Source of the DNA: Stentor roeselii
Taxonomy: Eukaryota; Ciliophora; Heterotrichea; Heterotrichida; Stentoridae
NCBI GenBank assembly: GCA_006503475.1
Contig: RSEH01000415.1
Location: forward strand, 1-21,934
Direction: 5' to 3'
Length of the DNA stretch: 21,934 bases
Shown here: positions 4,058-21,934 of the stretch, one piece after another
Layout: the number at the start of each line of letters is the position of its first letter
Position numbering within the stretch: position 1 is the first letter of the stretch
Position numbers and translations under genes: made by a program
The notes under the pieces: generated by a model
The model's input: only the letters and a program-made list of their open reading frames with translations
Databases searched by the model: none
What the model was told of the DNA's origin: nothing

Positions 4058-4680
4058 ATGTTTAGTATTTATAAGTTTATATCATTATCATCTATTCAAA
4101 TTAGAGTCTTGATCAAGTCAGAGGAGATTTCAGAAGCCTCATACTTTTTTAAACCTTACTTACCACCAATCGAAAACATGGTAAAAAATAAACCTTGTAT
4201 TGTGTCAGAGTTCACTAGATATGAGTATCTTACACAAATCTTGCTAAAACTTAAGAACCAATAAGCGATTTTCTAGATTTTACAAATTCAGAATACTCAA
4301 AACATTTTCTTCTAACTCAGAAAACCTCTAAGAAGGTTCAGTGTTTTATTCTCACTGAGTTTATTACTCAACAACCTCGCCTCTATCATCAGCAAGTCAA
4401 TCTTAATAAAAACGAATAGAAATTGAATTTCCTATACATGCTCTTTATACATCAAGATTTCATGAACACTTGGCCATAATAAAGACATTCAAGGACTTAA
4501 AGCCCTTAAAACTAAAGGTAAAGTTATCATTTAATTGACTGAAGTTTTTTACAATTCTAATAAGGAAACTGAAGCTATTTAGTATTTCAAGTTAAGATAT
4601 AGCATAATAATATCAATTCTACAAACAAAACACAGTGAATAAAAAATTGCTGGTCTATCAGGTAAAGTCATTTTTTATCA
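4058..4680 (+). pseudogene. Degenerate tandem copy of the Cache-domain gene
   Basis: An ATG frame runs 4058-4264 (68 codons), with the pieces SEEISEASYFF and SEFTRYEYLTQ matching SEASNSF and SEFTNYEYFTK of the intact gene 1.6 kb upstream. After the stop, nucleotide similarity continues in shifted frames: 4348-4420 closely tracks the intact segment encoding SYSHGVYYSKTSPLSPAG. Around 4510-4660 one frame reads GKVII, then ISILQTKHSE and KIAGLSG, with TAA, TAG and TAA codons in between, lining up with the Cache core GKVTIT...AIMKNEEIFGVA. It is a tandem-duplication relic with stops and frameshifts. The 3' limit is approximate. Confidence 0.75.
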
Positions 4681-6534: not shown

Positions 6535-7533
6535 TTAAAGTCCCTTAGGCACAAACTCAGCTTTATCAATATCAAAGCACAAATGCAATTGCTTAATATT
6601 CTCTTCATCCACTTCAATTCTATTAACCTCATTAATAATCCTCTTCCAATTCAATTTTCCTTCTCCAGCATCAAGTAAAACAACAAAATCCTTCCATTCC
6701 TTCTGAGATTTATGACAAATCTTCAAAGGAATAATAATATCAGCAAGGTCAGATGCCTGCAGAAGCATTTTTTCAAGTTTTTTCAGTATAAAAACTACAA
6801 ACTTATAAAAAAAAATCCACCCACTATAAAAAAACTGATCAAAAACCATGACCATCTCATTAGCCGGTACAACTCCAGCAAACAAAGAAAAGCACCACTC
6901 AGTCACATACATCTTCGGAAGTACTTCAAACCTAGCAAAGTGAGCATGAAGACTAGGAAGTCTTTCAATCATCAACAAGTGAATAATTTGACAATGCTTA
7001 GACAATCCTGGGAACTTCGGTAAGTACACATCTCTTAATTCATGTCGTTCCATCAATCCAACAAAAATCCAAAAAGCGTCAACTTCTGAACAATGCCACA
7101 AAAGAGCTCCAACGATATAATTCATTCCTTGAACATAACCTAAATTCGGGTCGTATTTGCAGTAAACACTTAAAACTCGACGTAAACTGTCTTCGCCCGT
7201 CGAGGAGTTGAAGTAATCCTCGTCTGGGTACGTCCTGCTCAGGTCTAACTCGATTTGACGAAGGCTTGACTGGTACTCTGCGATGTCCATTGGACTCATC
7301 AGGAGACTTGAGTAGATAGATTCGGCATTTCGAGGAAAATTCAAATATTTCGCCCATTGTTGCACTCGCCAACAAGATGATGTCTGAGACTGACTGGAAC
7401 GACGAAGGTAACGAGTGATTATGTTCTGTCTTTTTAAATCACAGTCGCATTGAATGTGGTGACTTGATTCTAAAGATGCTTTTGGATTTGGAGAACTATG
7501 AGGAGTGTATTCTGATGTTGAAAGAGAAGCCAT
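6535..7533 (-). CDS. TBC-domain Rab GTPase-activating protein
   Basis: The 332-residue protein is almost entirely a Rab-GAP TBC domain. It would accelerate GTP hydrolysis by a Rab GTPase on endomembranes. Both catalytic fingers of the dual-finger mechanism are present: the IxxDxxR motif as IELDLSR with Arg100, and the YxQ motif as GYVQGMNYI with Gln135. The usual downstream blocks follow (DAFWIFVGLMER, then MYVTEWCFSLF and VFDQFFYSGW). The N-terminus (1-40) is Ser-rich and low in complexity; no accessory domain is seen. The start ATG at 7531-7533 is 109 bases from the divergently transcribed epimerase gene; the stop is TAA. The target Rab cannot be told from sequence. Wobble bases are C-rich in the 5' half (9 of 20 codons at 7201-7260) and C-free near the 3' end (0 of 20 at 6601-6660). 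Confidence 0.9.
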   Translation of the reverse strand: MASLSTSEYTPHSSPNPKASLESSHHIQCDCDLKRQNIITRYLRRSSQSQTSSCWRVQQWAKYLNFPRNAESIYSSLLMSPMDIAEYQSSLRQIELDLSRTYPDEDYFNSSTGEDSLRRVLSVYCKYDPNLGYVQGMNYIVGALLWHCSEVDAFWIFVGLMERHELRDVYLPKFPGLSKHCQIIHLLMIERLPSLHAHFARFEVLPKMYVTEWCFSLFAGVVPANEMVMVFDQFFYSGWIFFYKFVVFILKKLEKMLLQASDLADIIIPLKICHKSQKEWKDFVVLLDAGEGKLNWKRIINEVNRIEVDEENIKQLHLCFDIDKAEFVPKGL

Positions 7534-7642
7534 TTATAAAGATGAGGATTTTTGATTGAGAAGAAAGAGTTTGAGGAAAAAATCTTAAATTTTTTGATTT
7601 TATGGAAATCTCTTGATTTAGGAATAGAATTAAGGTTTAATA

Positions 7643-8635
7643 ATGAACATCTTGGTGACAGGAGGCTTAGGCTACATCGGAAGTCATACAGTTGTCGAGT
7701 TAAGTGAAATCGCTTCAACAATTCACATAATCGACAATTTATTCAACGCCTCAGTTGAAGTGTTCTCGAAACTCGAACAGCTTTTACCATCAAAGAATCT
7801 CGTCTTTCACAAAGGCGATTTACGTGATGAGTCTTTTTTAAGTTCAGTGTTTTCAAACCCGATCGATGCAGTGATCCACTTCGCAGCGTTGAAAGCAGTC
7901 GGCCAGAGCATGTTGAAGCCTTTAGACTATTACCAAGTAAACGTGGGTGGAACGATTAACCTTCTCCAAGCAATGAAATCAGCGAATGTGAATAAGTTTA
8001 TTTTCTCGTCATCGGCATGTGTTTATGGGGATCAAGGCGGAATCTATGTCGAAACTTGCCCGACTGACGCGGTGAACGTTTATGGAAAGACTAAGGTCAT
8101 GGTTGAGACGATTCTTAAGGACTATGCCTATGCGAATAAAGAGTTTTCTGCTATTATTTTGAGGTATTTTAACCCTGTCGGCGCACATCCTTCAGGGCTT
8201 ATCGGGGAGGACCCTAATGGCATACCGGACAATTTGGTCCCTTTTATACAAAAAGTTGCTACTGGGAGACTGGAGAAGCTTCGAGTCTTTGGAAATGATT
8301 ATATTAGTAATGACGGAACTGGGATAAGAGATTATATTCATATTGTTGACCTTGCTAAAGGACATGTTACTGCACTTCATCATTTGAAGCCGGGATGCGA
8401 AGTCTATAACTTGGGCACAGGTAAAGGAACAACTGTACTCGAGCTGATCAAGACCTATGAAAAAGTAATAGGAAGAGAAATCCCCTACGAAATAGTCGGC
8501 AGAAGAGACGGAGACGTTAACACCTTGCAGTCGATCCCGACAAAAGCCAATACAGACCTAGGTTGGTTCGCTGAAAAGACCGTGGAAGACATGTGTCGAG
8601 ACTCTTGGAATTACATAAGTTCTAAGAACATTTAG
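7643..8635 (+). CDS. GALE: UDP-glucose 4-epimerase
   Basis: The enzyme is an NAD-dependent short-chain dehydrogenase/reductase family member that interconverts UDP-glucose and UDP-galactose (Leloir pathway, cytosol). Its 330 residues match the usual 330-350. Visible motifs are the Rossmann GGLGYIG (7-13), FAALKAVGQS, the active-site serine block FSSSACVYG (121-129), the catalytic YxxxK pair Tyr147/Lys151 in VYGKTK, ILRYFNPVGAHPSG, IRDYIHIVDLAKGH and YNLGTGKGTTVLEL. The start is the first ATG, with an AATAATG context seen at several genes here. The TAG stop at 8633-8635 abuts, with no spacer, the stop codon of the convergent membrane-protein frame. UDP-galactose supplies glycosylation. A GDP- or dTDP-sugar relative is unlikely given the match to the GalE-specific blocks. 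Confidence 0.95.
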   Translation: MNILVTGGLGYIGSHTVVELSEIASTIHIIDNLFNASVEVFSKLEQLLPSKNLVFHKGDLRDESFLSSVFSNPIDAVIHFAALKAVGQSMLKPLDYYQVNVGGTINLLQAMKSANVNKFIFSSSACVYGDQGGIYVETCPTDAVNVYGKTKVMVETILKDYAYANKEFSAIILRYFNPVGAHPSGLIGEDPNGIPDNLVPFIQKVATGRLEKLRVFGNDYISNDGTGIRDYIHIVDLAKGHVTALHHLKPGCEVYNLGTGKGTTVLELIKTYEKVIGREIPYEIVGRRDGDVNTLQSIPTKANTDLGWFAEKTVEDMCRDSWNYISSKNI

Positions 8636-9235: not shown

Positions 9236-10231
9236 TTAAGCCCAAAAATAACTCAAGAAAGCGACGATCACTGCTAGTAAGCCCAAAACTTTCCAAAGAG
9301 AAGTACCTGTTTTGATAAGTTTGTAAGAATAATCTGCACTTCCTACCATCACTGCTGAGCCATTCTCGTTAAAGTCACAACAAGTTGCTGGCATTTCAAA
9401 AACTGTTTCTTTTAGTTTGATTGAAAAGGTTTTCATGTCAACTAAGATTATTTCTCCTGAACCTGTTCCGACTGCTGTTGTTTCGCCTGATCTACTTGGC
9501 TTTGCCATTCCTGCGGAAGAATTGCATACTTTAAGAGAGTCTATTGGAGAGAAGTTGCTTATAATGTCCCATTTGTTCAGGTAAGTTGAGTTTCGAGTGG
9601 TTGAAAGAGTTATTAATTTGTTTTGGATCACGAAACATGATTTTAGCATCATTTTAGATGATGGACTTTCTGAAAATTGAAGAGTTTTCAGCTTTTCACC
9701 TGATTTTGATGAGAAAACAGCACAGGATGATGGCTTTAAACAAGCAAAGATGTAGTTTGATGAACCTTCACATGAGGCTATTTCTGAACCTGTAAAAATT
9801 TCTAACACTTTTGAAGAGATGCCTACTTTCTCAACATTCCACACAGAAATCACTCCTTCTTCACCAGCCGAAATAACACGAGAATCATTTTCATAAGGTT
9901 TAACAATCGATACAGTTTTCACCTTTTCACTTTGAAACCTATGTTGAAGTCGAATTTTGGCATCTTCAGTAACCGAGTAAAAAGCGATATCTTTTCCAAG
10001 TCCTCCAACAATAATATTCGCGGTATTCAAATAATGAATCGAGTAAAGCAAATCATCTCCTGTGTCTAGAGAATCAACTTTTTCCATACTCGACGATTTG
10101 AAAATTAAGATCTCGTTTTTAAGAGCAAACTTCTTCCCACCCCCTCCTCCTGAAATAAGTACCCAATTCTTGCAAAAGCATAAACCAAAGATAGGAAAGT
10201 CAAGAGTTTTAGGTTTTCGCTTACAAGACAT
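9236..10231 (-). CDS. SEC12: Sec12/PREB-like WD40 protein with C-terminal membrane anchor
   Basis: This 331-residue protein has a beta-propeller-like body and a single C-terminal hydrophobic span (about 311-331, LWKVLGLLAVIVAFLSYFWA) with almost nothing after it, so it is a tail-anchored ER protein. Near the N-terminus PIFGLCFCKNWVLISGGGGG and KKFALKNEI match the Gly-rich K-loop region that in Sec12/PREB inserts into Sar1. Later blades include SRVISAGEEGVISVWNVEK and GTGSGEIILVDMKT. Sec12 is the guanine-nucleotide exchange factor for the GTPase Sar1 and starts COPII vesicle budding at the ER. The protein is shorter than the metazoan one (about 417), and blade signatures are weak, which is usual for Sec12. 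The start ATG is 10229-10231; the stop is TAA. It is divergent from the importin gene across a 284-base spacer. The main alternative is an unrelated tail-anchored WD40 protein. Confidence 0.75.
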   Translation of the reverse strand: MSCKRKPKTLDFPIFGLCFCKNWVLISGGGGGKKFALKNEILIFKSSSMEKVDSLDTGDDLLYSIHYLNTANIIVGGLGKDIAFYSVTEDAKIRLQHRFQSEKVKTVSIVKPYENDSRVISAGEEGVISVWNVEKVGISSKVLEIFTGSEIASCEGSSNYIFACLKPSSCAVFSSKSGEKLKTLQFSESPSSKMMLKSCFVIQNKLITLSTTRNSTYLNKWDIISNFSPIDSLKVCNSSAGMAKPSRSGETTAVGTGSGEIILVDMKTFSIKLKETVFEMPATCCDFNENGSAVMVGSADYSYKLIKTGTSLWKVLGLLAVIVAFLSYFWA

Positions 10232-10515: not shown

Positions 10516-13011
10516 ATGAGTTTACTCTCTCAAATCCTACTCGAAGCCCAAACAATAGACCAGACTTCACGAGAAAAGGCGAAAAAAGCCTTAGAAGATC
10601 GTTCCCATACAAATCCAACTGGGTATCTTCTAGATCTTTCTACAGAACTGACGAACAACTCTAACCAGGCAAAGGTCCGTCAGCTGGCGGGGATCTTAAT
10701 CAAGAACCTGGTCCAAAATCTAACCCAAGACCCGTTGTTGGAAAATGTGTGGCAACGAGTGGACGCTGAGACCAAGACTCTTATAAGGAACAACACCCTC
10801 GGATCACTTGCCAGTGATGATAAGGACGTCAGGCTTATCGCTTCACAGGCAGTGTCGTCTTTAGCCTGTCTTGACATTCCACAAAACGACTGGCCGGAAG
10901 TACTTGGTATCTTGATCACGAATTCAACAAATATGAATAAAATCTTCAAAGTCTCTGCAATAAGAACTTTAGGATATATATGTGACGGGCTTCCTGAACA
11001 GTATGTTAGTAAATCACAGGCTGATTCGATTTTAACGGTTTTGGCTAGCAACTTAGACGTAAGCGAGCCGGATATTGATGTGAAGCTTGTTTCTTTAGCC
11101 TCTTTGAGAAATTCTTTGAAGTTCATCAGTGCCAATATGGCGAACGCGGAAGAAAGGTCTTTGATTTTAAACCTTCTTTATAGTTGTAGCACTCATTCAG
11201 AGGTGAGCGTGAGAAGAGAAGCGGTGATGATCATTTGTGATGTTGCAACAACTTACTATCAGTTTATTGAAAGTAACTTGATAGACTTGGGGAATTTGAC
11301 TTACGGGATTATTCGAGGATCTGATGTGGAGGTAGCGATTTATGCTATAGAATTTTGGAATCAGATTGCAGATGAAGAAGCTACTTTGATTTCGCTAGGA
11401 AAGCCTTCGAAAGGCTATATTTCGACTGCCGCAGCTAGTTTAGTCCCTCTGTTGCTTGAAAAGATTCACCTATTTGATGAAGATAACGATGAATGGAATA
11501 TTCATAAGGCTTGTGCTAGTACCTTAGGTTCAATTGCTATTATTGTTAATGATAATATACTGCAAATGGTCGGAGATTATATCTCAACTTGCATTCAAGA
11601 TCCAGACCCTCGAAAAAGAACCTCGGCTGCCGTCATCATCGGATTCGTATCTGAAGGGATAACTGATGCGAAACTTTTGATTCAGGTAGTGTTTAAGTCC
11701 TTACTTGGACTTTTGAATGACAGTTATTTGAAATTAAGGGAAACCTCTGCCTGGAGCTTGTCGAAACTTTGTGAGTTTCATGGAAAGACTATCATTGAAA
11801 ATGGGTTTTTCCTTCAGATCTTTCAGGAAATTATCAAGTTGCTTAAAGATGCTCCAACTATTGCAACTCATGCTTGTTGGACTATTGTAAACTTGTTTAA
11901 AAAAGGTGCTATTAATGATATGTTGGACCAGGAGATGATTCAGTGCATTTTGAGCTCTATTTTTGATGCAAGTTTGAGACCTGATGCTTATGATACTGGG
12001 CATGAACTGGTGATTGCAATTTATTGCAGTATCAACTCCATCATTGAAGAGGTTCCTGAAAAGTATTTCAGTTATTTTACTAACCAAATACCTGTTTTTA
12101 TACAGTTACTTGAAAATACTGTCACGAATCCAGTTCATGCTCCTGCTCAGGGACATCTTTGCTCAGCTATTCAAGCTATCTTTGGAAGATCTCAACTTGG
12201 AATGGTTGATGAGGTTAATGCTGATAAGTTCATGGATACTATCATTGGGATTTTTAAAATGAAAGGCACTGTCATCGAGGAAGGCCTACAAGCAATAGGT
12301 TCATTAGCCGAAAACATCTCCTCACGTTTCCTAAAATACCTAAATACCGTAATGCCATTCGTTATCTGGTGTATCGACAACTCATCCTCCTCCCTATGCA
12401 AATCAGGAGTGATCGCCTGCGGTGATTTTTCTCGTGCACTGGGTGAAGACTTCGGCCCTCAAATCCCATCAGTAATTCACAAGCTTCTATCAATTCTCGA
12501 GAACCAGCAGCAGATGTTTGAAGTAAAAATCCGAGTGATAGACACATTAGCCGATTTCGCATCACACAATGCCGGAATAACTTCTAATTACTTGCCAACT
12601 ATCTTTAAATTTATCGGCGGAGCAGCAGAACTAAGTTTAAATTTGAACAATGAAATAAATTCCGAGTATTTTGAATGTTTTTTACAGTTGCGAGAGGCGA
12701 TTATGAGTTTTTATGTAGGGATCATCCAGGGCCTTCATGACAAGAAACAAGAAGAAATCGTGAACGGGTACATGCCGGGAATAGTTGAATACGCACTTCA
12801 AGTAGTTCAAGATAGGTACAAGCCGAGCCTTGATATTCACATCGGGGCAATAGGACTCATTGGAGATATCGCGTCGTACTTCGGATCGAAATTGGTTCAG
12901 TTGATTCGCTCACCACTGGCTAATGACTATTTGGCAGCAGCTGCTAGGTTCGAGGATAAGACTATCAAGGAAATTCTAGCCTATACAAATGAAAGGATTA
13001 AACTTGTTTAG
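10516..13011 (+). CDS. KPNB1: Importin subunit beta-1 (karyopherin beta)
   Basis: The 831-residue alpha-solenoid is built of HEAT repeats and is close in length to animal and yeast importin beta (about 860-876). The N-terminal importin-beta region is recognisable: an ILLEAQTIDQTSREKAKKAL helix pair, then KVRQLAGILIKNLV, the family's (R)xxAxxxLKN block. Later helices such as CASTLGSIA, KRTSAAVIIGFVSEG, LRETSAWSLSKLCEF and ATHACWTIVNLF match the central HEAT repeats. It would carry importin-alpha/NLS cargo through nuclear pores and release it on binding Ran-GTP. The start is the ATG at 10516 (context GTAAAATGAG); the stop is TAG. There are no introns. Synonymous codon use changes sharply inside the gene: wobble positions at 11341-11400 are T9 A7 G4 C0, while 12301-12360 are A9 C8 T2 G1. 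Confidence 0.93.
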   Translation: MSLLSQILLEAQTIDQTSREKAKKALEDRSHTNPTGYLLDLSTELTNNSNQAKVRQLAGILIKNLVQNLTQDPLLENVWQRVDAETKTLIRNNTLGSLASDDKDVRLIASQAVSSLACLDIPQNDWPEVLGILITNSTNMNKIFKVSAIRTLGYICDGLPEQYVSKSQADSILTVLASNLDVSEPDIDVKLVSLASLRNSLKFISANMANAEERSLILNLLYSCSTHSEVSVRREAVMIICDVATTYYQFIESNLIDLGNLTYGIIRGSDVEVAIYAIEFWNQIADEEATLISLGKPSKGYISTAAASLVPLLLEKIHLFDEDNDEWNIHKACASTLGSIAIIVNDNILQMVGDYISTCIQDPDPRKRTSAAVIIGFVSEGITDAKLLIQVVFKSLLGLLNDSYLKLRETSAWSLSKLCEFHGKTIIENGFFLQIFQEIIKLLKDAPTIATHACWTIVNLFKKGAINDMLDQEMIQCILSSIFDASLRPDAYDTGHELVIAIYCSINSIIEEVPEKYFSYFTNQIPVFIQLLENTVTNPVHAPAQGHLCSAIQAIFGRSQLGMVDEVNADKFMDTIIGIFKMKGTVIEEGLQAIGSLAENISSRFLKYLNTVMPFVIWCIDNSSSSLCKSGVIACGDFSRALGEDFGPQIPSVIHKLLSILENQQQMFEVKIRVIDTLADFASHNAGITSNYLPTIFKFIGGAAELSLNLNNEINSEYFECFLQLREAIMSFYVGIIQGLHDKKQEEIVNGYMPGIVEYALQVVQDRYKPSLDIHIGAIGLIGDIASYFGSKLVQLIRSPLANDYLAAAARFEDKTIKEILAYTNERIKLV

Positions 13012-13698
13012 GTTGATTTGGTTTTCAATTAAAGTCTTATTTGATTTGATCTTAAATGGGATTTGGATTTTGAATTGAGAGGGGTTTGTGAGATATTTTT
13101 TAGTTTTGGGGAATTTGGGGTTACTGTAGAATGGATTGGGTTTATTAGAGATCTGAAGAAGGATTATTTTTATGTTTTTCTGGGGATTATGAGGATATTG
13201 AAGGTTTTAATTGATGCTTCTTGCAAGGTTTTGGGTTTGATCTGTTTGAAATACTGTGAAGGTCTACCTAAATGTTTTTTAGTCTTTTTGAGTGCTAATT
13301 TTAGCTAAACTCAAAGCAACTAACTTTTTCTAAAAGGTCTTACTAGCCTGGGTTTCATTTGTTTCACGATTAGCCCAAAATCACTTTTTCATCTCCGAGT
13401 TCTTGAAAGATTTTTACTTTTCTTTGGAGCTATTTTCTATTTTTTATAGAAAATCAGGTTTTTCTTGTGCTTATTGCTTAAAACATCGCTTGAGGCTTCA
13501 GCTTCTTTCGAAAACTCTGAAGAAAAGTGTTCTGCTAAGTTTTTATACTCTCAGTGGCTTCAATTGAAATATGATGAAAACTGATGCGATATTAACTCAT
13601 AATTTTATTAGAATTTATAGAATCTGTCGAATCGAGCTAATATTATATTCATGGAAATTTGGACCTGCTTCAGAAACATGCAAAAATATAAACGTTAA
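13012..13698. other. Non-coding spacer downstream of importin beta, strongly G/T-rich at first
   Basis: 13020-13310 is very G/T-rich on the plus strand (13081-13140: G 23, T 25, A 11, C 1), with G-runs at 13081-13084, 13108-13111, 13117-13120 and 13138-13140. An 81-codon frame at 13063-13308 begins with TTG and looks like a product of this composition, not a gene. 13310-13690 is AT-rich and includes a perfect 8-base inverted repeat at 13432-13454. A 62-codon ATG frame at 13571-13759 overlaps the next gene in another frame and is not supported. The spacer should hold the importin 3' end and the promoter of the 13699 gene. Confidence 0.45.
13432..13454. repeat. Perfect 8-base inverted repeat with 7-base T-rich loop
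   Basis: ATTTTCTA at 13432-13439 and TAGAAAAT at 13447-13454 can form a hairpin around a loop of six T and one A. It is AT-only apart from one G-C pair, so it is weak; it could mark a 3'-end or be chance in AT-rich DNA. Confidence 0.3.
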
Positions 13699-14094
13699 AT
13701 GGAAACCAAATTTAAAACACGGGGAAAAATTGTTAAAGACGTTGGAAGGAAATCATTGATGTTCGCGCCTGAGACTTCCAAGAATTTTGAATCAACTTGT
13801 AGGTACTTTAAAGGAGCGGAAACTGCAAGAAGTTTGAATAGTATTGGACTAAAAAAGTCACTTTCACACTTCAATGTTGACATTGAACCGATTTTTCAGC
13901 CTGTTCAAACTTCTCGAAACTCTTTAACAGACAAAAATTGTAAGTTTGAAGTTCTTAGCAGGAGACTTTCCCTTCCATCAAAACTAAAGCCCAGTCCAGT
14001 AATCCTCCCCTCCTTCTCCTCAAAATTCCTCCACAACTTATCAAAACTAGAGCACCGTTTAAAACTTTACTACCTAAACCAAAACTACCTATAA
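13699..14094 (+). CDS. Small basic protein, orphan
   Basis: The product is 131 residues, rich in Lys, Arg and Ser (METKFKTRGKIVKDVGRKSL at the start), with no membrane span, coiled coil or domain that I recognise. Support for a real gene is its ATG start, a protein-like composition and clean placement: its TAA stop lies 11 bases from the stop of the convergent EF-hand gene, the same tight tail-to-tail spacing seen at other pairs here. The C-terminal 40 residues use C/A-ending codons like neighbouring genes. The middle has a short IEPIFQPVQTSRNSL stretch typical of disordered linkers. Function unknown; possibly a microtubule- or nucleic-acid-associated basic protein, which is a guess from charge alone. 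Confidence 0.5.
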   Translation: METKFKTRGKIVKDVGRKSLMFAPETSKNFESTCRYFKGAETARSLNSIGLKKSLSHFNVDIEPIFQPVQTSRNSLTDKNCKFEVLSRRLSLPSKLKPSPVILPSFSSKFLHNLSKLEHRLKLYYLNQNYL

Positions 14095-14105
14095 ATAGTC
14101 TAAAC

Positions 14106-15638
14106 CTAATGTTTATCAAGATGAAGTTTGTATATAATCGATACAAAGTTCCCATTATACTCAAGCTGATGCGACAAGAGTGTACTAACAATATCAGAAA
14201 AAGTAATCTTTCCAGTATCAGCCGGGTCAACAAACTTAATAAGTCTTTCATTTTCTTCTAAAATATCGAGCATTGCCAAAAGTTCTGAAAACTGTTTAGC
14301 AGTGAGAAGACCAGTGTTCTCAGTATCAATAATCGAGAATTTTTCCCTAAAGGCCTCAAGAAGCTGGTCATGTCCAGTCACTTGAAACTCAAGAAGAAGG
14401 TTGACGAATGTCGAGTAACTTAAAGTCGACTTGCCTTGAGCCTTGGAAGCTCTTGACTGGCTTCGCTCAGCATGTTCGTTGAGAAGACTTATAAGGTACT
14501 GGCTGTCTGAAGGGGTGTACATGTAATTCACTATGTTTTTCCATTCTTCTTCTTCGAGGTCTCCTTGGGTCTTTGTTGAGAGAAGGTCACTGATTGCCTT
14601 TTCTTGCATGTAGGGAAATTTGTTCTTTAGGTGGATTTTTAATAGAAGGAGGGACTTGTTTTTCACGTCTTGGATTATGCTACGGTAGGACTCCTCGATT
14701 TGATGACGAAGAATCTTAGCGAATAGAAGGATGTCAGGGTCTTCCGCTTCGAACTTGTCCACGGCTTTGATCACGGCGTTGTACCAGTCGTTTTTTAAGG
14801 TTTTTAAACCGTATTTCTTGTTTAGGTATGAGTCCATGTATTGCTCCATTGTTTCTTTTGGTAAGTGCATCTGTGAGCACTTCAAATCATACTTTTCCTT
14901 ACTAGCATAAATATCATCAATAAACTCTTTCAACTGTTTCAAAGTTAAATCTTTAACAGTAGAAACCTGAGAAATCCTACTCGTGACTTTTTTAACATCA
15001 CGAGTTTTTTCCTTAACAACCTTTGGTGCAGAGTAGCTTCCAATATCCTTAGAAAGTGCACTATCCGCTTTTTCCTTCGACAAGCTGATAATCTTCTGCA
15101 AATACTTCTCATTCTCTTCCTGCAGCTGTTGCAACTGCAAATCCAAATCCTCAGGAACATCCCTAGACCTTTCCCTAAGCCTCGAGTTTTCTTCCCTTAA
15201 ACTTCTAACAGTACCTTCAAGTTCTTCAGCCGCAGCCAAAATCTGATTAACTTCATTTTTGCTTCTTTCCAATTCATCCTGCAAATAATTCAAACTTTCT
15301 CCAGACCCAGCAGATTCTTTAAAAATTCTTTGTATCTGAGTAAGTACTTCCACAAGGATTTTACTTGCACCAGTGTCTAAAGTTTTCACATAAGCACAAA
15401 TTTTTTCCCCACACATATTCCACAACTTATACCGAGCTTGAATAACCTCACTTCTAAAATCAGCAGATGAGGACTTTTTATTCGTCAGTTCTCCTAAAGC
15501 TTGTGAAATCGCTTTTTCGAAGGCTTGGGCTAAGACAGAGTCAGCCTCTGGATGCTTTTTTTTGAAGAGGGTTCTGATCTGGTCATAAGTATTCGCGATT
15601 TGTTCGAGGTCTTTAGGGTCAAATCCTGTTTCTTCCAT
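14106..15638 (-). CDS. Coiled-coil protein with C-terminal EF-hand pair
   Basis: This 510-residue protein has three parts. Residues about 1-110 are helical. About 115-205 is a coiled coil (ELEGTVRSLREENSRLRER, then QLQQLQEENEKYLQKI). About 225-350 is a compact helical block (LTLKQLKEFIDDIYASKEKY, LPKETMEQYMDSYLNKKYGL, LLFAKILRHQIEESYR) that I recall as a conserved block in EF-hand proteins of ciliated protists, without a settled name. The C-terminus carries two EF-hand-like loops, DTENTGLLTAKQF and DPADTGKITFSDI. Each keeps the first Asp and central Gly, but several ligand positions are poor, so calcium binding is uncertain in the first and plausible in the second. The likely role is structural or calcium-regulated in cilia or cortex. 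The start ATG is 15636-15638; the stop is TAG. The next minus-strand gene ends 64 bases upstream of this start. Confidence 0.85.
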   Translation of the reverse strand: MEETGFDPKDLEQIANTYDQIRTLFKKKHPEADSVLAQAFEKAISQALGELTNKKSSSADFRSEVIQARYKLWNMCGEKICAYVKTLDTGASKILVEVLTQIQRIFKESAGSGESLNYLQDELERSKNEVNQILAAAEELEGTVRSLREENSRLRERSRDVPEDLDLQLQQLQEENEKYLQKIISLSKEKADSALSKDIGSYSAPKVVKEKTRDVKKVTSRISQVSTVKDLTLKQLKEFIDDIYASKEKYDLKCSQMHLPKETMEQYMDSYLNKKYGLKTLKNDWYNAVIKAVDKFEAEDPDILLFAKILRHQIEESYRSIIQDVKNKSLLLLKIHLKNKFPYMQEKAISDLLSTKTQGDLEEEEWKNIVNYMYTPSDSQYLISLLNEHAERSQSRASKAQGKSTLSYSTFVNLLLEFQVTGHDQLLEAFREKFSIIDTENTGLLTAKQFSELLAMLDILEENERLIKFVDPADTGKITFSDIVSTLLSHQLEYNGNFVSIIYKLHLDKH

Positions 15639-15702
15639 TATTGTGAAGGAGTGGAGAGGATGTTAAGGTAGAGAAGATTAGTGAATAATGTCAAGTAATA
15701 GA

Positions 15703-16254
15703 CTAGTCTATTCGGTAGGTATAACTGTACTTGTAAGACCAGGCACCGTCAAAGGTTAATTCGCAGATTTCAGCTTTTGAGTTGGGTTTCACGTCAGTTG
15801 CGAAGACTGTTCTTCCACTTTCAGAACGGATGCCAGAGAGTTCCATTATCATGATTTCGAAGTGGATGGGTCTTTCGGTTTTATTGATTAGTTCAAAGAG
15901 AATTCGCTGTTCCAGGTCTTCTTGAGTTATGATCAGGTCGAGGTTCTCAGCGACTTGGACTTCTTTCACTAGAGCCTCGGGCTTTAGCTTCTGGTATTTG
16001 TATTCGAATTTATAGGAAAACTGCCCTTCCACTTGTAGTTGCATAAAAGAAAAAGAGGTCAATGGTAATACTTGGACCTGTTTTTCAAGTTCTCCGTCAG
16101 GGGACTTTACATTTACAGGCTGCTTTATTTGAAAGTCAACTAAAAACATAAAGTCAGTCTGGTTCTCTAAGAAAAAATCGATTAGTCCTTCAGAAAGTCT
16201 TTTCCGGATTCTCAGAAAGAGTCCAGAACAGATCATTTTTTGAATGTCTGACAT
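15703..16254 (-). CDS. Beta-rich protein made of two tandem copies of one domain
   Basis: The product is 183 residues with no signal peptide or span. It has an internal duplication. The first half runs DFFLENQTDFMFLVDFQI ... VLPLTSFSFMQLQVEGQFSY, KFEYKYQ. The second runs LFELINKTERPIHFEIMIME ... DVKPNSKAEICELTFDGAWS, YKYSYTYR. Both units end in G-aromatic-SYK-aromatic-x-Y-x-Y, so each is probably a beta-sandwich of about 70 residues. I do not recognise the family with confidence; beta-sandwich C-terminal domains of protist calpain-like proteins have a similar feel, which is a weak analogy. The start ATG is 16252-16254 (AATAATG context); the stop is TAG at 15703-15705. The phosphatase gene diverges from it, with about 50-90 bases between starts, so the pair likely shares a promoter. 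Confidence 0.75.
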   Translation of the reverse strand: MSDIQKMICSGLFLRIRKRLSEGLIDFFLENQTDFMFLVDFQIKQPVNVKSPDGELEKQVQVLPLTSFSFMQLQVEGQFSYKFEYKYQKLKPEALVKEVQVAENLDLIITQEDLEQRILFELINKTERPIHFEIMIMELSGIRSESGRTVFATDVKPNSKAEICELTFDGAWSYKYSYTYRID

Positions 16255-16347
16255 TATTAATTAACTTTGCTAAAGTTTGAGTTATTTCACAAGTTAATCT
16301 TGAAAATGAGATTTCAACATTTTTCTAATTTCTACTCTTTTAAAATA

Positions 16348-17358
16348 ATGGATTTTATTTTTAACGGCCTTAGCAAAACTCCGAAGACTGAAAAACCGAC
16401 TCGAGAAATTCTGAAAACGATTGTTAATTCGAATCTTAGTCTTAATCCTTGCTTCAACTCGCCATCTGGACAGAAAATTCGAGAATCTCTTCATCTTCAA
16501 TGCAAACGTAGATCAGTTTTAACAAGTCCTAGTTCAAAGTTGAGTGAAAATTCAAAGTCTCCTCGAATCGCGATTCCTTCACGCTTTAAGTCTGGTGCTT
16601 CAAGTTCTTCTCTCAAATATGCATCATCAACAATATCTGAGAGAAGAAGTGAACAGTTTTATAGAGAACATTTGTTTTTTACTTTCCAAGCTACTAAATT
16701 TATTAGGAAGATTAATGAGGTTGACCTGGAAATTATTAAAGAGAAAAGTGTTTGGATACCTAAAAAACCTGGCTTTGAAGGGAAAAAAACGGTTATTTTT
16801 GATCTTGATGAAACACTTGTGCATACTTCTGAGGATTTCGGAGGTCAGAGTAATCGAATTAACATCTGTTTACCTCAAGGACAGGTCTTTGCTTGGGTTA
16901 ATATCAGACCTTTTGCGAGGGAATGTTTAAGAGAAGCTGCTAAAAATTTTGAGGTGATTGTGTTCACTGCCAGTGATTCACCCTATGCAGATGCTGTATT
17001 AGACCTCCTCGACCCAGAGAAGACCTTAATTCACTGGCGACTATATCGTGAAAGTTGCATCATCGTAAACAACAAATTTATAAAAGACTTAAGAATTCTA
17101 GCAAACAGAGACTTAAAAGACATAATCCTGGTCGACAACTCAGTTTACTCCTTCGCTTATCAACTAGACAACGGTATCCCAATAATAACCTGGACGGAAG
17201 ACCCATGCGACCGAGAGTTATTCAACCTAATCGACTATCTTCAACTTCTTCTAGAAACCGAAGACATGCGATCATTAAACAGATCAGTTTTTCAACTGCA
17301 TTCATTTTACGACGACTACATAAGAGACTATTTAAAATCAGGTAGGTTATTATTTTAA
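16348..17358 (+). CDS. FCP1/SCP-type (NIF) HAD-family protein phosphatase
   Basis: The protein has 336 residues from the chosen ATG, which has the AAATAATGG context common here; an in-frame ATG at 16306 would add 14 residues, and the TTG at 16267 is not credible as a start. The N-terminal 130 residues are Ser/Lys-rich and probably disordered. From about 147 the FCP1-homology domain is complete: motif I FDLDETLVHT with the nucleophile Asp152 and acid/base Asp154, motif II FTAS, FIKDL with the motif III Lys, and motif IV ILVDNS. The family dephosphorylates Ser/Thr on the RNA polymerase II CTD (SCP) or on lipin (Dullard/Nem1) using an aspartyl-phosphate. With no membrane span it resembles SCPs more than Nem1. 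The stop TAA overlaps the convergent SHIPPO gene by 9 bases. Codon wobble flips from T-rich to C-rich near 16970. Confidence 0.9.
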   Translation: MDFIFNGLSKTPKTEKPTREILKTIVNSNLSLNPCFNSPSGQKIRESLHLQCKRRSVLTSPSSKLSENSKSPRIAIPSRFKSGASSSSLKYASSTISERRSEQFYREHLFFTFQATKFIRKINEVDLEIIKEKSVWIPKKPGFEGKKTVIFDLDETLVHTSEDFGGQSNRINICLPQGQVFAWVNIRPFARECLREAAKNFEVIVFTASDSPYADAVLDLLDPEKTLIHWRLYRESCIIVNNKFIKDLRILANRDLKDIILVDNSVYSFAYQLDNGIPIITWTEDPCDRELFNLIDYLQLLLETEDMRSLNRSVFQLHSFYDDYIRDYLKSGRLLF

Positions 17359-18822
17359 ATCAAACAAAGCATTAAAAGTTTTCTTGTTCCACCCTTTCAT
17401 ATCTGAATAAGAACCTGGACCAGGAGACTCTGAAAGGGTTTCTTTGAATCTCGGGTTTTTGGCTACAATGAAACCTTTGCTTTTCTTGATTGTTGATAAC
17501 TTGTAACTACCTGGGCCTGGAGTGAAAGAACGATTTTTTTCATCGAATCTTTCTGATTGGATGTTGAAGGCTTTGGCTTTATTGGATCCTTCTCGAACTA
17601 GAATAGGATGGACTACTGAACCTATTGACTTCACTTCTCCCATCTTTTTTACCACTTCGTAGGAACCTGGGGCAGGGGTAAAGGTTTGAACGGCTGTTGG
17701 CAATCTTTTGCTTTTGCTTATAAAGACACTTGAACCTTTGGGTCTTTGACTGGTTATTGTTTTGTGAGAATCGTAACTACCTGGACCTGGAGAGTCTTTT
17801 AGTTCTGTGTAATAGTTGAACCTGTCTTGACCTGCACCGAATCCTCCTCTGCTTTGAGTTGGTCTTACTCCTACTTTGGTATCATAACTTCCTGGGCCAG
17901 GTCCAGCATCAACACATTCAACAAACCTTGGCCCAGTAGAATCAAAAGGAACCTTCCCTTCAACTCCAAATTTCCCATTTTCCAAAGACAAATAACTTCC
18001 AGGTCCAGGTTGTACATCAGGAGTCATAGCTCTAAACCTTTCACACCTACTTCCAAAATTCTGAACCCTATTAACATGACTCTGATTCCAGGCAGTTCCA
18101 AAGTTATATCTTCCAGGTCCAGGAACATCTTTCTCACTAATAAACTCCGGTAAATACCCATCCCTTTTACTTCTGCTTAAAAATGATGCACTTTCCTTAT
18201 CTTTATACCTTGGTTTAGGTGATTTAGAATCATAAGTTCCAGGTCCAGGAGAACAAGATTTTCCTCTACTTATTGTTCTAGAAGTTTGAGGTCTTCCCCA
18301 GATATAAAGTCTTGGCTTATTAGGACTTTTAGGGTCATAATACCCAGGACCGACCAGTGACTCTTTACTTTCTGAGACCTTTTTCATTACGAGTTCTCCA
18401 GATTCATCATCTGAGTAACAATACCCTTCTCTTGGAATAGATGGCGCTGAAGGCTGCCTTATCCAGTTAATCGTTGTTTCAGTCTTATTGGACTGCTTTA
18501 ATGTCGGCCAAGGTTGGGTCTCGTAGGCTCCTGGACCTGGACTTTTGCATTGTTTCAGCTGGAACCTTTCAATTTGACTTGCGAAAGAAGAAGACTGGAT
18601 TATGTTGTTCGTTGGACGAGGCTTCGATGTTTGAAGAAGGTAGGAACCTGGACCTGGAGTAAGGACTTCAACACGGGAAACGGATTTTTCAGATGATATG
18701 CAAAATGGCACTTTTCCTTGCTTTTTCTTGTATGAGTTTAAACCGATGTAGCTACCTGGACCGATGTTGTTGTGGTTTTGATAGAGAGTTAGTTTTCGTT
18801 CAGATTTATGGACAAATGCCAT
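17350..18822 (-). CDS. SHIPPO/STPGR-repeat protein (ODF3/CIMAP-like)
   Basis: The 490-residue protein consists of about twelve sperm-tail PG-rich repeats, each centred on a PGPGxY-type core. In order these are GPGSYIGL, PGPGSYLL, PGPGAYET, GPGYYDPK, PGPGTYDS, PGPGRYNF, PGPGSYLS, PGPGSYDT, PGPGSYDS, PAPGSYEV, PGPGSYKL and PGPGSYSD, spaced roughly 33-50 residues. The protein is Lys/Ser/Pro-rich with no membrane span. STPGR proteins associate with axonemal or cortical microtubules and outer dense fibres, so a cytoskeletal role in cilia or cortex is expected. The start ATG is 18820-18822; the stop TAA overlaps the phosphatase gene end by 9 bases. It is divergent from eIF4A. A truncated frameshifted copy lies at 1371-2194. 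Family assignment is firm; the precise role is not. Confidence 0.92.
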   Translation of the reverse strand: MAFVHKSERKLTLYQNHNNIGPGSYIGLNSYKKKQGKVPFCISSEKSVSRVEVLTPGPGSYLLQTSKPRPTNNIIQSSSFASQIERFQLKQCKSPGPGAYETQPWPTLKQSNKTETTINWIRQPSAPSIPREGYCYSDDESGELVMKKVSESKESLVGPGYYDPKSPNKPRLYIWGRPQTSRTISRGKSCSPGPGTYDSKSPKPRYKDKESASFLSRSKRDGYLPEFISEKDVPGPGRYNFGTAWNQSHVNRVQNFGSRCERFRAMTPDVQPGPGSYLSLENGKFGVEGKVPFDSTGPRFVECVDAGPGPGSYDTKVGVRPTQSRGGFGAGQDRFNYYTELKDSPGPGSYDSHKTITSQRPKGSSVFISKSKRLPTAVQTFTPAPGSYEVVKKMGEVKSIGSVVHPILVREGSNKAKAFNIQSERFDEKNRSFTPGPGSYKLSTIKKSKGFIVAKNPRFKETLSESPGPGSYSDMKGWNKKTFNALFDLK

Positions 18823-20231
18823 GAATTACATTTTGAATATTAATAAAGTATATAAGAATGAAGTGATTTTGGGCTTTTTATTGATTATTGGAAGTACCTG
18901 ATATAAAATAATCCTTTTTTATTGGAGTAGTTTGAAAATATTTAAATTATGATTGAAAAGTTATCAAAAAGTTTTAAAGTCTTTTATTTTAATATAAAGT
19001 TGATGAATTTGAAATTGAGTTTTAGTGTGTAGGTTGATATCATTTATTTAAGTTTTTTAATGATTTCTGATCATTTTCTAATGGGTTATAATAGGTGGTT
19101 GATGGTAGAACAAACTGAAGAATTTATAATCGATTCCAATTGGCATGAAGTGACAGAGACATTTGACGATATGAATCTGAAGCAAACTTTGCTGAGAGGG
19201 ATCTACTCATACGGTTTCGAAAAACCGTCAGCCATCCAGCAAAAAGGAATTAAACCGATCATATTGGGCAGAGATACTATCGCCCAGGCTCAGTCAGGTA
19301 CAGGAAAGACCGCAACCTTCACTGTCGGGATGTTAGAACTGATAGACAACTCAATCAGCAATTGTCAGGCATTGATTTTAGCTCCAACTCGTGAACTAGC
19401 TCAGCAAATCCATCGAGTGGTCCTTCAGATCGGCCAATATCTAAAAATAAACTGCCACGCCTGCATCGGAGGAACAGTAGTGCGAGAAGACATCCGCATT
19501 CTCGAAAAAGGTTGTCACGTAGTCGTCGGTACCCCAGGCCGAGTATTCGACATGATATCCCGAAACCACCTGACAACAAGTCAATTGAAACTCTTCATCT
19601 TAGACGAGGCAGACGAGATGTTATCAAGAGGTTTCAAAGACCAGATCCAAGAAATCTTCAGACACTTGCCAGGGAATGTTCAGTGTTGCTTATTTTCAGC
19701 GACTATGCCTCCAGAGATCTTGAAACTGACAACAGACTTCATGAGAGACCCAATTCGCATCTTGGTGAAGAAAGACGAGTTGACATTAGAAGGAATAGCT
19801 CAGTATTATATTCCTATTGAAAAGGAAGACTGGAAATTGGCGACTTTGGCTGATTTGTATGAAAACTTAGATATTGCTCAAGCTATTATCTATGCGAATA
19901 CCAGAAGGAAAGTAGAAGCACTTACCAAGCAAATGACTGAAAAGGACTTTGTTGTTTCGTATATGCATGGAGAAATGGACCAGACTCAGAGGGAACTTAT
20001 TATGAAGGAGTTTAGGACTGGATCGACTAGGGTGTTGATTACGACTGATTTACTTGCTAGAGGAATTGATGTGCAGCAGGTCAGTCTTGTCATCAATTAT
20101 GATATGCCTACTAACTATGAAAATTACTTGCATAGGATTGGAAGAAGTGGAAGGTTTGGAAGAAAGGGAGTCGCTATTAACTTTGTCACTGAGGCTGATG
20201 CACAGTTTTTAAAGGATTTAGAACAGCATTA
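17997..20231 (+). repeat. Arm B of the large inverted duplication (intact arm)
   Basis: This arm is the reverse-complement partner of 1-2194. Both genes are intact here: eIF4A has every helicase motif and SHIPPO has twelve repeats. It is therefore the parental or maintained copy. The duplication breakpoint lies inside the SHIPPO coding region. Confidence 0.9.
18823..19101. promoter_or_regulatory. Divergent spacer of the intact SHIPPO/eIF4A pair
   Basis: The 279 AT-rich bases should contain the promoters of both genes. The inverted copy at 1131-1370 lets conserved parts be picked out: the stretch TTTATTAATATTCAAAATGT just upstream of the SHIPPO start (minus strand) and TTATAATAGGTGGTTGATGG at the eIF4A start are nearly identical in both arms. 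Because the copies are young, conservation is not by itself proof of function. Confidence 0.5.
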
Positions 20232-20280
20232 TAATACCAGTATTGAGGAGTTACCTGAAGATCTGAGTAATCTTCTTTAG
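19102..20280 (+). CDS. EIF4A: DEAD-box RNA helicase eIF4A
   Basis: The product is 392 residues from the ATG at 19102, within the usual eIF4A size (about 390-410). An upstream in-frame ATG at 19060 adds 14 residues, but that extension is not conserved in the inverted copy. Motifs in order are Q motif GFEKPSAIQ, Walker A AQSGTGKT (63-70), Ia PTRELA, GG, Ib TPGR, DEAD (168-171), SAT (199-201), [29 protein letters not shown] and motif [15 protein letters not shown]. The N-terminal [20 protein letters not shown] and the C-terminus ([15 protein letters not shown]) point to eIF4A, less likely the exon-junction paralogue eIF4A-III. It unwinds mRNA 5' leaders as part of eIF4F during cap-dependent initiation. 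The stop is TAG. Wobble bases run A9 C9 G1 T1 at 19441-19500 but T10 G4 A3 C3 at 20041-20100. Confidence 0.95.
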
Positions 20281-20599
20281 TTTAATCAGTTATTGATTCA
20301 GATTTTTTTATTATTTAGAGAGATATTGGGTGATTGGGTTGATTTAGTTGATTTTATTAGTTTAGTGATTTTTATGGTTTGGTGATATTTACTTAACTCA
20401 GTAAAAGTCTATTAAAATAACTATATTATAAAGAATTATCTTTTTATTAAATATAGACTCTTTTAGGAATAATCAATAGTATTATATCATAGTTATTTAA
20501 TGCTATAACTGTATTTTGTATATTTAACATAAAAAAATTTCACTGATTTACACTAATATATAAAGGAAAAGGCTTTGTGGTTTTTTTAGTAGTTTATAA
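20281..20599. other. AT-rich spacer between eIF4A and the cyclic-nucleotide-binding gene remnant
   Basis: The 319 bases have no gene. The first 110 bases are T/G-rich, continuing the composition of the end of eIF4A, and the rest is A/T-only over long stretches. It should contain the eIF4A 3' end; nothing else is recognised. Confidence 0.4.

Positions 20600-21934
<1,335 letters not shown>

Follow-up and report, generated by a model that had tools for sequence, protein, structure and literature searches.

Strand composition alternates on a half-kilobase scale within genes of the ciliate Stentor roeselii, with abrupt switches mostly of one polarity

Why would the preferred synonymous codons change partway through a gene? 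This question is raised by a contig of the ciliate Stentor roeselii (RSEH01000415.1 of assembly GCA_006503475.1; its 21,934 nucleotides are the window). An earlier note had described alternating stretches of strand composition there that flip codon choice inside genes. We use K for a stretch that is G/T-rich on the plus strand and M for one that is A/C-rich on the plus strand. Across 242 kb of this genome, there is a strand-coordinated compositional bias, best read as C-to-T change on the K-state strand. Its shape is a sawtooth on a scale of about 1 kb, in which the K-to-M switches are abrupt (we call these the centres) and the returns are more gradual. We are confident of this description. 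As to the cause, we tentatively favor mutation of single-stranded DNA (ssDNA) on both sides of recurrent germline breaks.

The source assembly has 44.4 Mb in 522 contigs, and the window is its contig C366. Our sample for skew comprises the window, 150 kb of contig C1 and 70 kb of contig C339, with 121 mechanically found open reading frames (ORFs) of at least 150 amino acids as its gene set. This is about 0.5% of the genome, and validity genome-wide is an extrapolation. “Noncoding” means outside of these ORFs, which is about a quarter of the DNA and includes some short genes. As a control for the same code, we used 100 kb of E. coli K-12. A two-state hidden Markov model (HMM) placed 41% of positions in the sample in K and 40% in M, with 20% uncertain.

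The third-position counts that first suggested the alternation (six full counts, and two counts of wobble C in the TBC gene) are all exact and in frame. Chance is rejected as their explanation by shuffling synonymous codons within ten genes of the window. In those genes, the choice of T versus C and that of G versus A are each positively autocorrelated, and positively cross-correlated, out to about 60–100 codons (z of 6 to 12 for the cross term), and these correlations are negative at 100–240 codons (z about −13 for the cross term). Because T goes with G and C goes with A, this is strand skew, not variation in G+C content. For 9 of the 10 genes, the range of wobble K3 over 40 codons was matched by at most 9 of 2,000 shuffles; the exception is a gene of 183 amino acids (482 of 2,000).

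From K to M, usage of GAT for Asp falls from 0.79 to 0.23, TAT for Tyr from 0.80 to 0.25, ACT for Thr from 0.71 to 0.26, and AGG for Arg from 0.33 to 0.07. For example, in a tubulin-family gene on contig C350, K3 for successive groups of 40 codons is 0.50, 0.62, 0.78, 0.72 and 0.93, and then 0.23 and 0.45. The skew correlation recurs separately in C1 and in C339 (220 kb together). In the full 242 kb, the autocorrelation of the wobble residual is 0.080 (0.0804) at 30 bp, reaches zero near 300 bp, and is −0.034 at 500 bp and +0.009 at 1,000 bp. This pattern is absent from E. coli, where the autocorrelation is 0.006 at 30 bp and 0.002–0.006 out to 1,000 bp.

The switches in the two directions differ in sharpness. 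We scored them with codon log-likelihoods, which were first trained on the flanks of K-to-M switches, and with a plain K/M score that is free of such training. Within single ORFs, the codon score gave 44 sharp K-to-M switches and 2 sharp M-to-K switches (h 90, z 4), or 37 and 1 (h 150, z 5). With the plain score, the ratios were 25:1 (h 90, z 4) and 43:3 (h 150, z 4), while E. coli at the same settings gave 1:0 and 0:0. When all DNA was considered, there were 25 sharp K-to-M switches and no M-to-K ones (h 150, z 5). The reverse complement of a K-to-M step is another K-to-M step, so the polarity does not depend on which strand is read, and every sharp switch marks a symmetry point.

Robust transitions in the 242 kb number 178 for K-to-M (0.74 per kb) and 158 for M-to-K. 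By extrapolation, about 33,000 K-to-M transitions would be expected in 44.4 Mb. The domains had been estimated at 0.4–0.9 kb; the alternation is there, but the mean HMM run, including short flips, is about 410 bp, near the low end of that range. With short flips again included, the spacing of K-to-M transitions is 819 bp (coefficient of variation of 0.57). In the window, we distinguish these domains and the genes that hold several of them:

10516..13011, plus strand: importin beta-like gene (Pfam TPR_IMB1, HEAT)
16348..17358, plus strand: NIF/CTD-type phosphatase gene (PF03031, 5.6e-49)
19102..20280, plus strand: eIF4A-like DEAD-box helicase gene (PF00270, PF00271)
7147..7641: K domain, 5' part of the TBC gene and the spacer to the divergent galE; K-to-M at about 7641 (HMM mean |P| 0.93)
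7983..8407: K domain inside galE; K-to-M at about 8407 (wobble K3 per 30 codons 0.67 at 8273, 0.53 at 8363, 0.20 at 8453)
9261..9829: K domain inside the WD-repeat gene; K-to-M at about 9829 (HMM)
10965..12263: K domain inside importin beta, with a flip at 11602–11649 merged; sharp K-to-M at about 12260 (z 5.0 at 12258, HMM 12263)
12264..12804: M domain inside importin beta, with a flip at 12640–12726 merged (mean |P| 0.78)
14396..14877: K domain inside the EF-hand gene (minus strand); sharp K-to-M at about 14870 (z 5.7 at 14868, HMM 14877)
14878..15496: M domain inside the EF-hand gene
15497..16977: K domain from the EF-hand 5' end via the 183-amino-acid gene into the phosphatase gene; K-to-M at 16977 (z 4.1, HMM 16977)
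16978..17408: M domain, 3' part of the phosphatase gene
17409..17880: K domain inside the SHIPPO-repeat gene; K-to-M at about 17880 (z 4.4 at 17897, HMM 17880)
18477..19191: K domain, 5' part of the SHIPPO-repeat gene, spacer and start of eIF4A; K-to-M at about 19191 (HMM)
19192..19787: M domain, 5' half of eIF4A; the linear fit falls and then jumps to K near 19776, contrary to the sawtooth rule

The EF-hand gene had been called mixed at the one place that was counted. This holds there (C7 T6 G4 A3), but the same gene has one of the sharper switches, at about 14870.

Is the skew a property of the DNA or of the codons? At 30 bp, the autocorrelation is 0.0262 in noncoding DNA and 0.0804 at wobble positions, and the correlation between coding and noncoding positions is 0.0455. 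That is close to the geometric mean (0.046), as expected of a single field that spans coding and noncoding DNA. Similarly, the wobble state at the ends of genes correlates with the adjoining 150 bp of noncoding DNA in each of the four classes of end and strand (r = 0.25, 0.47, 0.30 and 0.39). If these are pooled, r is 0.49 for 140 ends, which is raised by differences between the classes. For the 16 trinucleotide contexts, the ranking from T/C wobbles agrees with that from G/A wobbles read from the other strand (Spearman 0.965). CCG, ACG and ACA are the strongest contexts and GCT is the weakest (GC contexts are lowest). One context order for both kinds of wobble is what a process on DNA strands predicts. 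The order of neighboring bases was unchanged with labels from the plain score. In noncoding DNA, the log-odds are larger for C/G (0.79) than for A/T (0.19).

The layout of K and M also does not follow the protein. Across 115 alignments of paralogs, the smoothed state profiles have a mean r of 0.05 (−0.02 for the shifted control); this mean is indicative, as the set takes in one locus matched to itself as well as the window's duplicate, and pairs range from −0.82 to 0.89 or more. Two tubulin genes (L032 and L038), which we take to be of the beta type, share a stretch of 190 residues with 99% identical protein, yet their layouts are unlike (r = −0.36). For a 65% identical pair (L040 and L041), r is 0.00, while for the window's own duplicate it is 0.89. 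We rejected a codon layout tied to the protein, which is not kept between diverged paralogs. The continuity into noncoding DNA, the context ranks that are alike from both strands, and the independence from protein all support the general interpretation in the earlier note, a strand-specific mutational process.

The switches were also said to fall inside genes and to ignore gene borders. Most robust switches do lie within ORFs (117 of 178 for K-to-M and 136 of 158 for M-to-K), but gene ends are biased: the mean state is M at 5' ends (z = −5.9) and K at 3' ends (z = +3.5). In noncoding DNA, robust K-to-M switches outnumber M-to-K ones by 61 to 22, as compared to 117 and 136 in coding DNA (P = 1.5e-5, Fisher exact test). 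Per kb, this is 0.91 K-to-M switches in noncoding DNA and 0.67 in coding DNA, versus 0.33 and 0.78 for M-to-K. The K-to-M drop over spacers is 0.34 between divergent genes (n = 24), 0.20 between tandem genes (n = 54), and 0.06 between convergent genes (n = 26, not significant). By gap size, it rises from −0.12 under 50 bp to 0.44 at 400–1,200 bp (−0.04 for a control within ORFs). Meiotic breaks in yeast favor promoter spacers, which the placement of this drop may resemble. The sharp centres themselves give a mixed picture: of the 92 from the plain score, 61 are coding and 31 are noncoding, and most of those from the codon score are coding. Strand continuity between neighboring genes was not significant (r = 0.11 for genes on the same strand and 0.17 for opposite strands at gaps under 400, and −0.19 for opposite pairs at gaps under 1,500).

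What could produce abrupt switches of a single polarity? Each abrupt K-to-M centre might be a recurrent site of double-strand breaks in the germline. Resection would turn the top strand on the left side and the bottom strand on the right side into ssDNA, in which amino bases, above all C, would be more prone to mutation. In the long run, G and T would build up in the left flank and A and C in the right one. The effect would fade within about 0.4 kb, and synonymous codons would flip wherever a break site falls within a gene. What we observe is that amino bases are depleted to the left of a point centre and keto bases are depleted to the right, as in the footprint of a break. The K-to-M polarity is that of bidirectional resection. 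Recurrent breaks, which were not among the causes proposed in the earlier note (replication initiation spacing, antisense transcription or inversion of segments), fit this polarity better. In ciliate germlines, mutation rates from replication are very low, and mutation linked to recombination could dominate. The genome also encodes candidates for break formation and strand exchange, with one match to the Spo11/TopoVI-A type (TP6A_N) and two matches to the Rad51 family. We infer the breaks, their resection, the germline setting and the persistence of the sites; we put the probability of this cause, and of the description and the cause taken as a single statement, at roughly 37%.

Two of the closest known systems share this polarity. 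According to Hinch et al. 2023 (PMC7615360), human meiotic hotspots have mutations of amino bases on the forward strand in one flank and of the complementary bases in the opposite flank. This gives K-to-M polarity around a point centre, as in the ciliate. Those data are mutations at 25,440 autosomal hotspots with flanks of 1–2 kb, while in the ciliate the asymmetry is in the standing composition of most of the 242 kb, with flanks of about 0.4 kb. Also, in the ciliate, codon usage flips inside genes, and breaks at the centres are putative. In yeast, Sakofsky et al. 2019 (PMC6786661) describe APOBEC single-switch clusters, with mutated C's to the left of the switch and mutated G's to the right, due to bidirectional resection; the single switch point with C left and G right is like our centres. 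The yeast clusters are described as single repair events in the tCw context, while the ciliate shows a composition built up over evolution, in which CCG, ACG and ACA rank highest at wobbles and the GC contexts rank lowest. Among the matches listed from the open-licence literature, as judged by title and opening abstract, none describes kilobase alternation inside genes, so the kilobase K/M sawtooth is apparently without an earlier report.

Several observations weigh against recurrent breaks or do not fit them easily. Human hotspots have no asymmetry in the central 100 bp (PMC7615360), while in the ciliate the asymmetry reaches the centre. The rebound of the autocorrelation near 1 kb suggests regular spacing, which hotspots do not predict. 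With the codon score, 72 of the 82 centres are coding and 10 are noncoding, which is no enrichment in noncoding DNA, since this makes up about a quarter of the sample. We found no general motif at the centres (4- to 6-mers within 12 bp of the 82 centres, compared to simulated K|M junctions). Two 5-mers do exceed the null within that distance: GCGCA (5 occurrences versus 0.3 expected) and GATCA (14 versus 3.9). TGATCA (5 versus 0.6) is below the threshold for 6-mers. The excess of GATCA and GCGCA could be chance or a weak site preference. The amplitude of the skew in noncoding DNA is about half of that at wobble positions. In the context analysis, the states were inferred from those very codons, so the effect of the 5' base is partly circular (that of the 3' base is not). 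Noncoding and wobble contexts correlate weakly (0.41, P = 0.12), possibly because the noncoding state was inferred without context. GGN and CGN codons shift the opposite way, in coding DNA only, and GAA/GAG and AAA/AAG barely differ between the states, in contrast to the strong response of CAA/CAG and TTA/TTG. Finally, substitutions between the window's two 89%-identical copies are not biased in direction, although that comparison is uninformative.

The shape of the sawtooth is another difficulty. With looser or wider settings, the codon score gave 63:34 (h 150, z 4) and 49:48 (h 300, z 5), but this levelling would be expected if the M-to-K return is present but gradual. A piecewise-constant fit is slightly better than ramps (18945.6 versus 18969.5, a near tie). 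In the linear fit, 117 of 185 jumps are K-to-M and 109 of 188 segments rise; the other 68 jumps are M-to-K and 79 segments fall, with 18792–20712 of the window among these cases. We therefore limit our claim to asymmetric sharpness, not a linear ramp.

The sawtooth might instead reflect the asymmetry of replication forks. In that case, the centres would be closely spaced origins (if the leading strand is A/C-rich) or sharp termini (if it is G/T-rich), about 1 kb apart. The measure of skew and the sawtooth with abrupt jumps are shared with the replication skew of other genomes, and the spacers 5' of genes are also common sites of origins. The human N-domains (“factory roof”) have the same skew sum, with abrupt jumps and gradual returns, but they are about 1 Mb in size with upward jumps at origins, while the ciliate's are about 1 kb and the jump has the opposite sign. 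The replicons would be very short: for 178 K-to-M transitions in 242 kb to produce swings as large as 0.79 to 0.23 for GAT, nearly every origin would need to fire in each cycle. Also, a steady change over the replicon was not preferred to steps. We think that replication is an unlikely cause. We view developmental DNA cutting as improbable, and a little more so. Here, the centres would be junctions of germline-limited DNA (internally eliminated sequences, IESs) or developmental breakage sites, and cutting or nicking in the germline would yield the skew, with identical polarity. Blepharisma, another heterotrich, has introns of 15 and 16 bp, as well as alternative telomere addition sites and IESs, at tens of thousands of sites or about one per kb (PMC9942856, PMC9942806). 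With about 40,000 assembled IESs (PMC9942856) and a macronuclear (MAC) genome of 41 Mb (PMC9942806), the density is similar to our 0.74 centres per kb; the main texts of both papers lack the word “skew”. However, unlike Blepharisma IESs, the centres have no enrichment of TA, if we assume that they are placed to within about 25 bp: there were 81 TA dinucleotides versus 79 expected within 8 bp of the 82 centres, 154 versus 153 within 15 bp, and 262 versus 258 within 25 bp. A PiggyBac-type transposase domain was not found in the genome, though no control genome matched either. Also, excision events in somatic nuclei are not passed on to progeny.

Selection on codons or mRNA, whether for alternating fast and slow translation or to avoid RNA structure or cryptic splicing, would account for the codon-specific behavior of GGN and CGN in coding DNA and for wobble swings that are stronger than the noncoding ones. 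But the skew field extends into noncoding DNA, T/C and G/A wobbles agree in their ranking of contexts if C is taken on the one strand or the other, and neither the 99%-identical tubulin stretch nor the 115 paralog alignments show a conserved layout. We give selection a low probability. Least credible of all is that a genome with a strand bias over long distances had its segments repeatedly inverted, or was put together from germline pieces in scrambled order. Either would give alternating domains regardless of protein function, and inversion of segments was among the causes proposed in the earlier note; of its interpretation, the strand-specific mutational process is supported and inversion is contradicted. 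Inversion or scrambling predicts that switches are equally sharp both ways, and the ratios of 44:2, 37:1 and 25:1 largely refute this.

If recurrent breaks are the cause, then an ordinary genome sequence maps long-lived break sites in a ciliate, and mutation linked to recombination shapes composition more than replication error does. It is possible, if doubtful, that the entire genome preserves the traces of tens of thousands of fixed sites of germline breakage or strand opening, about 1 kb apart, that largely set synonymous choice and could be read from one assembly. Codon usage is normally ascribed to G+C content, tRNA supply or expression. In this ciliate, a process that acts locally and on one DNA strand goes along with its flips. 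Evolutionary models that assign a single codon usage to each gene would fit such genes poorly.

Other features of the genome identify the kind of host. Eleven GTA...TAG segments of exactly 15 nt restore reading frames, as compared to 0–2 at any other length from 12 to 30; these introns are in loci L002, L003, L014, L015, L022, L030, L031 and L035. About 95% of the introns of heterotrich ciliates are 15 bp (PMC11441545), and 15-nt introns are a hallmark of heterotrich-type ciliates. Of 100 ORFs of at least 200 amino acids, 12 end with TGA and the others with TAA or TAG. In Blepharisma, UGA is read as Trp (PMC9942806), and a code of that type fits this host less well. In K-state coding DNA, GGT for Gly and CGT for Arg drop, despite the preference for T in most other codon boxes, and noncoding DNA lacks this effect; our guess is that GT is avoided near the tiny introns.

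We also rejected mutagenesis by cytosine-5 methylation, since the genome had no match to the C5 DNA methylase family (PF00145), which was found in 10 of 14 controls. Four matches to dCMP/cytidine deaminase were found in the genome. An Rfam scan of the window and of ten C1 loci gave no matches.

Parts of the window are duplicated. Positions 1–2194 and 17997–20231 form an inverted duplication with 89.2% identity, which takes in eIF4A together with a portion of the SHIPPO-repeat gene. The left copy has its eIF4A broken across two frames, and no SHIPPO ORF of at least 100 amino acids is listed there. At 2583–2942 and 4105–4453, a dCache-domain gene is accompanied by a degenerate partial copy (73%) directly downstream of it. 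The 3' part of importin beta has a second copy, 85% identical, on another contig (C341:9977–11770).

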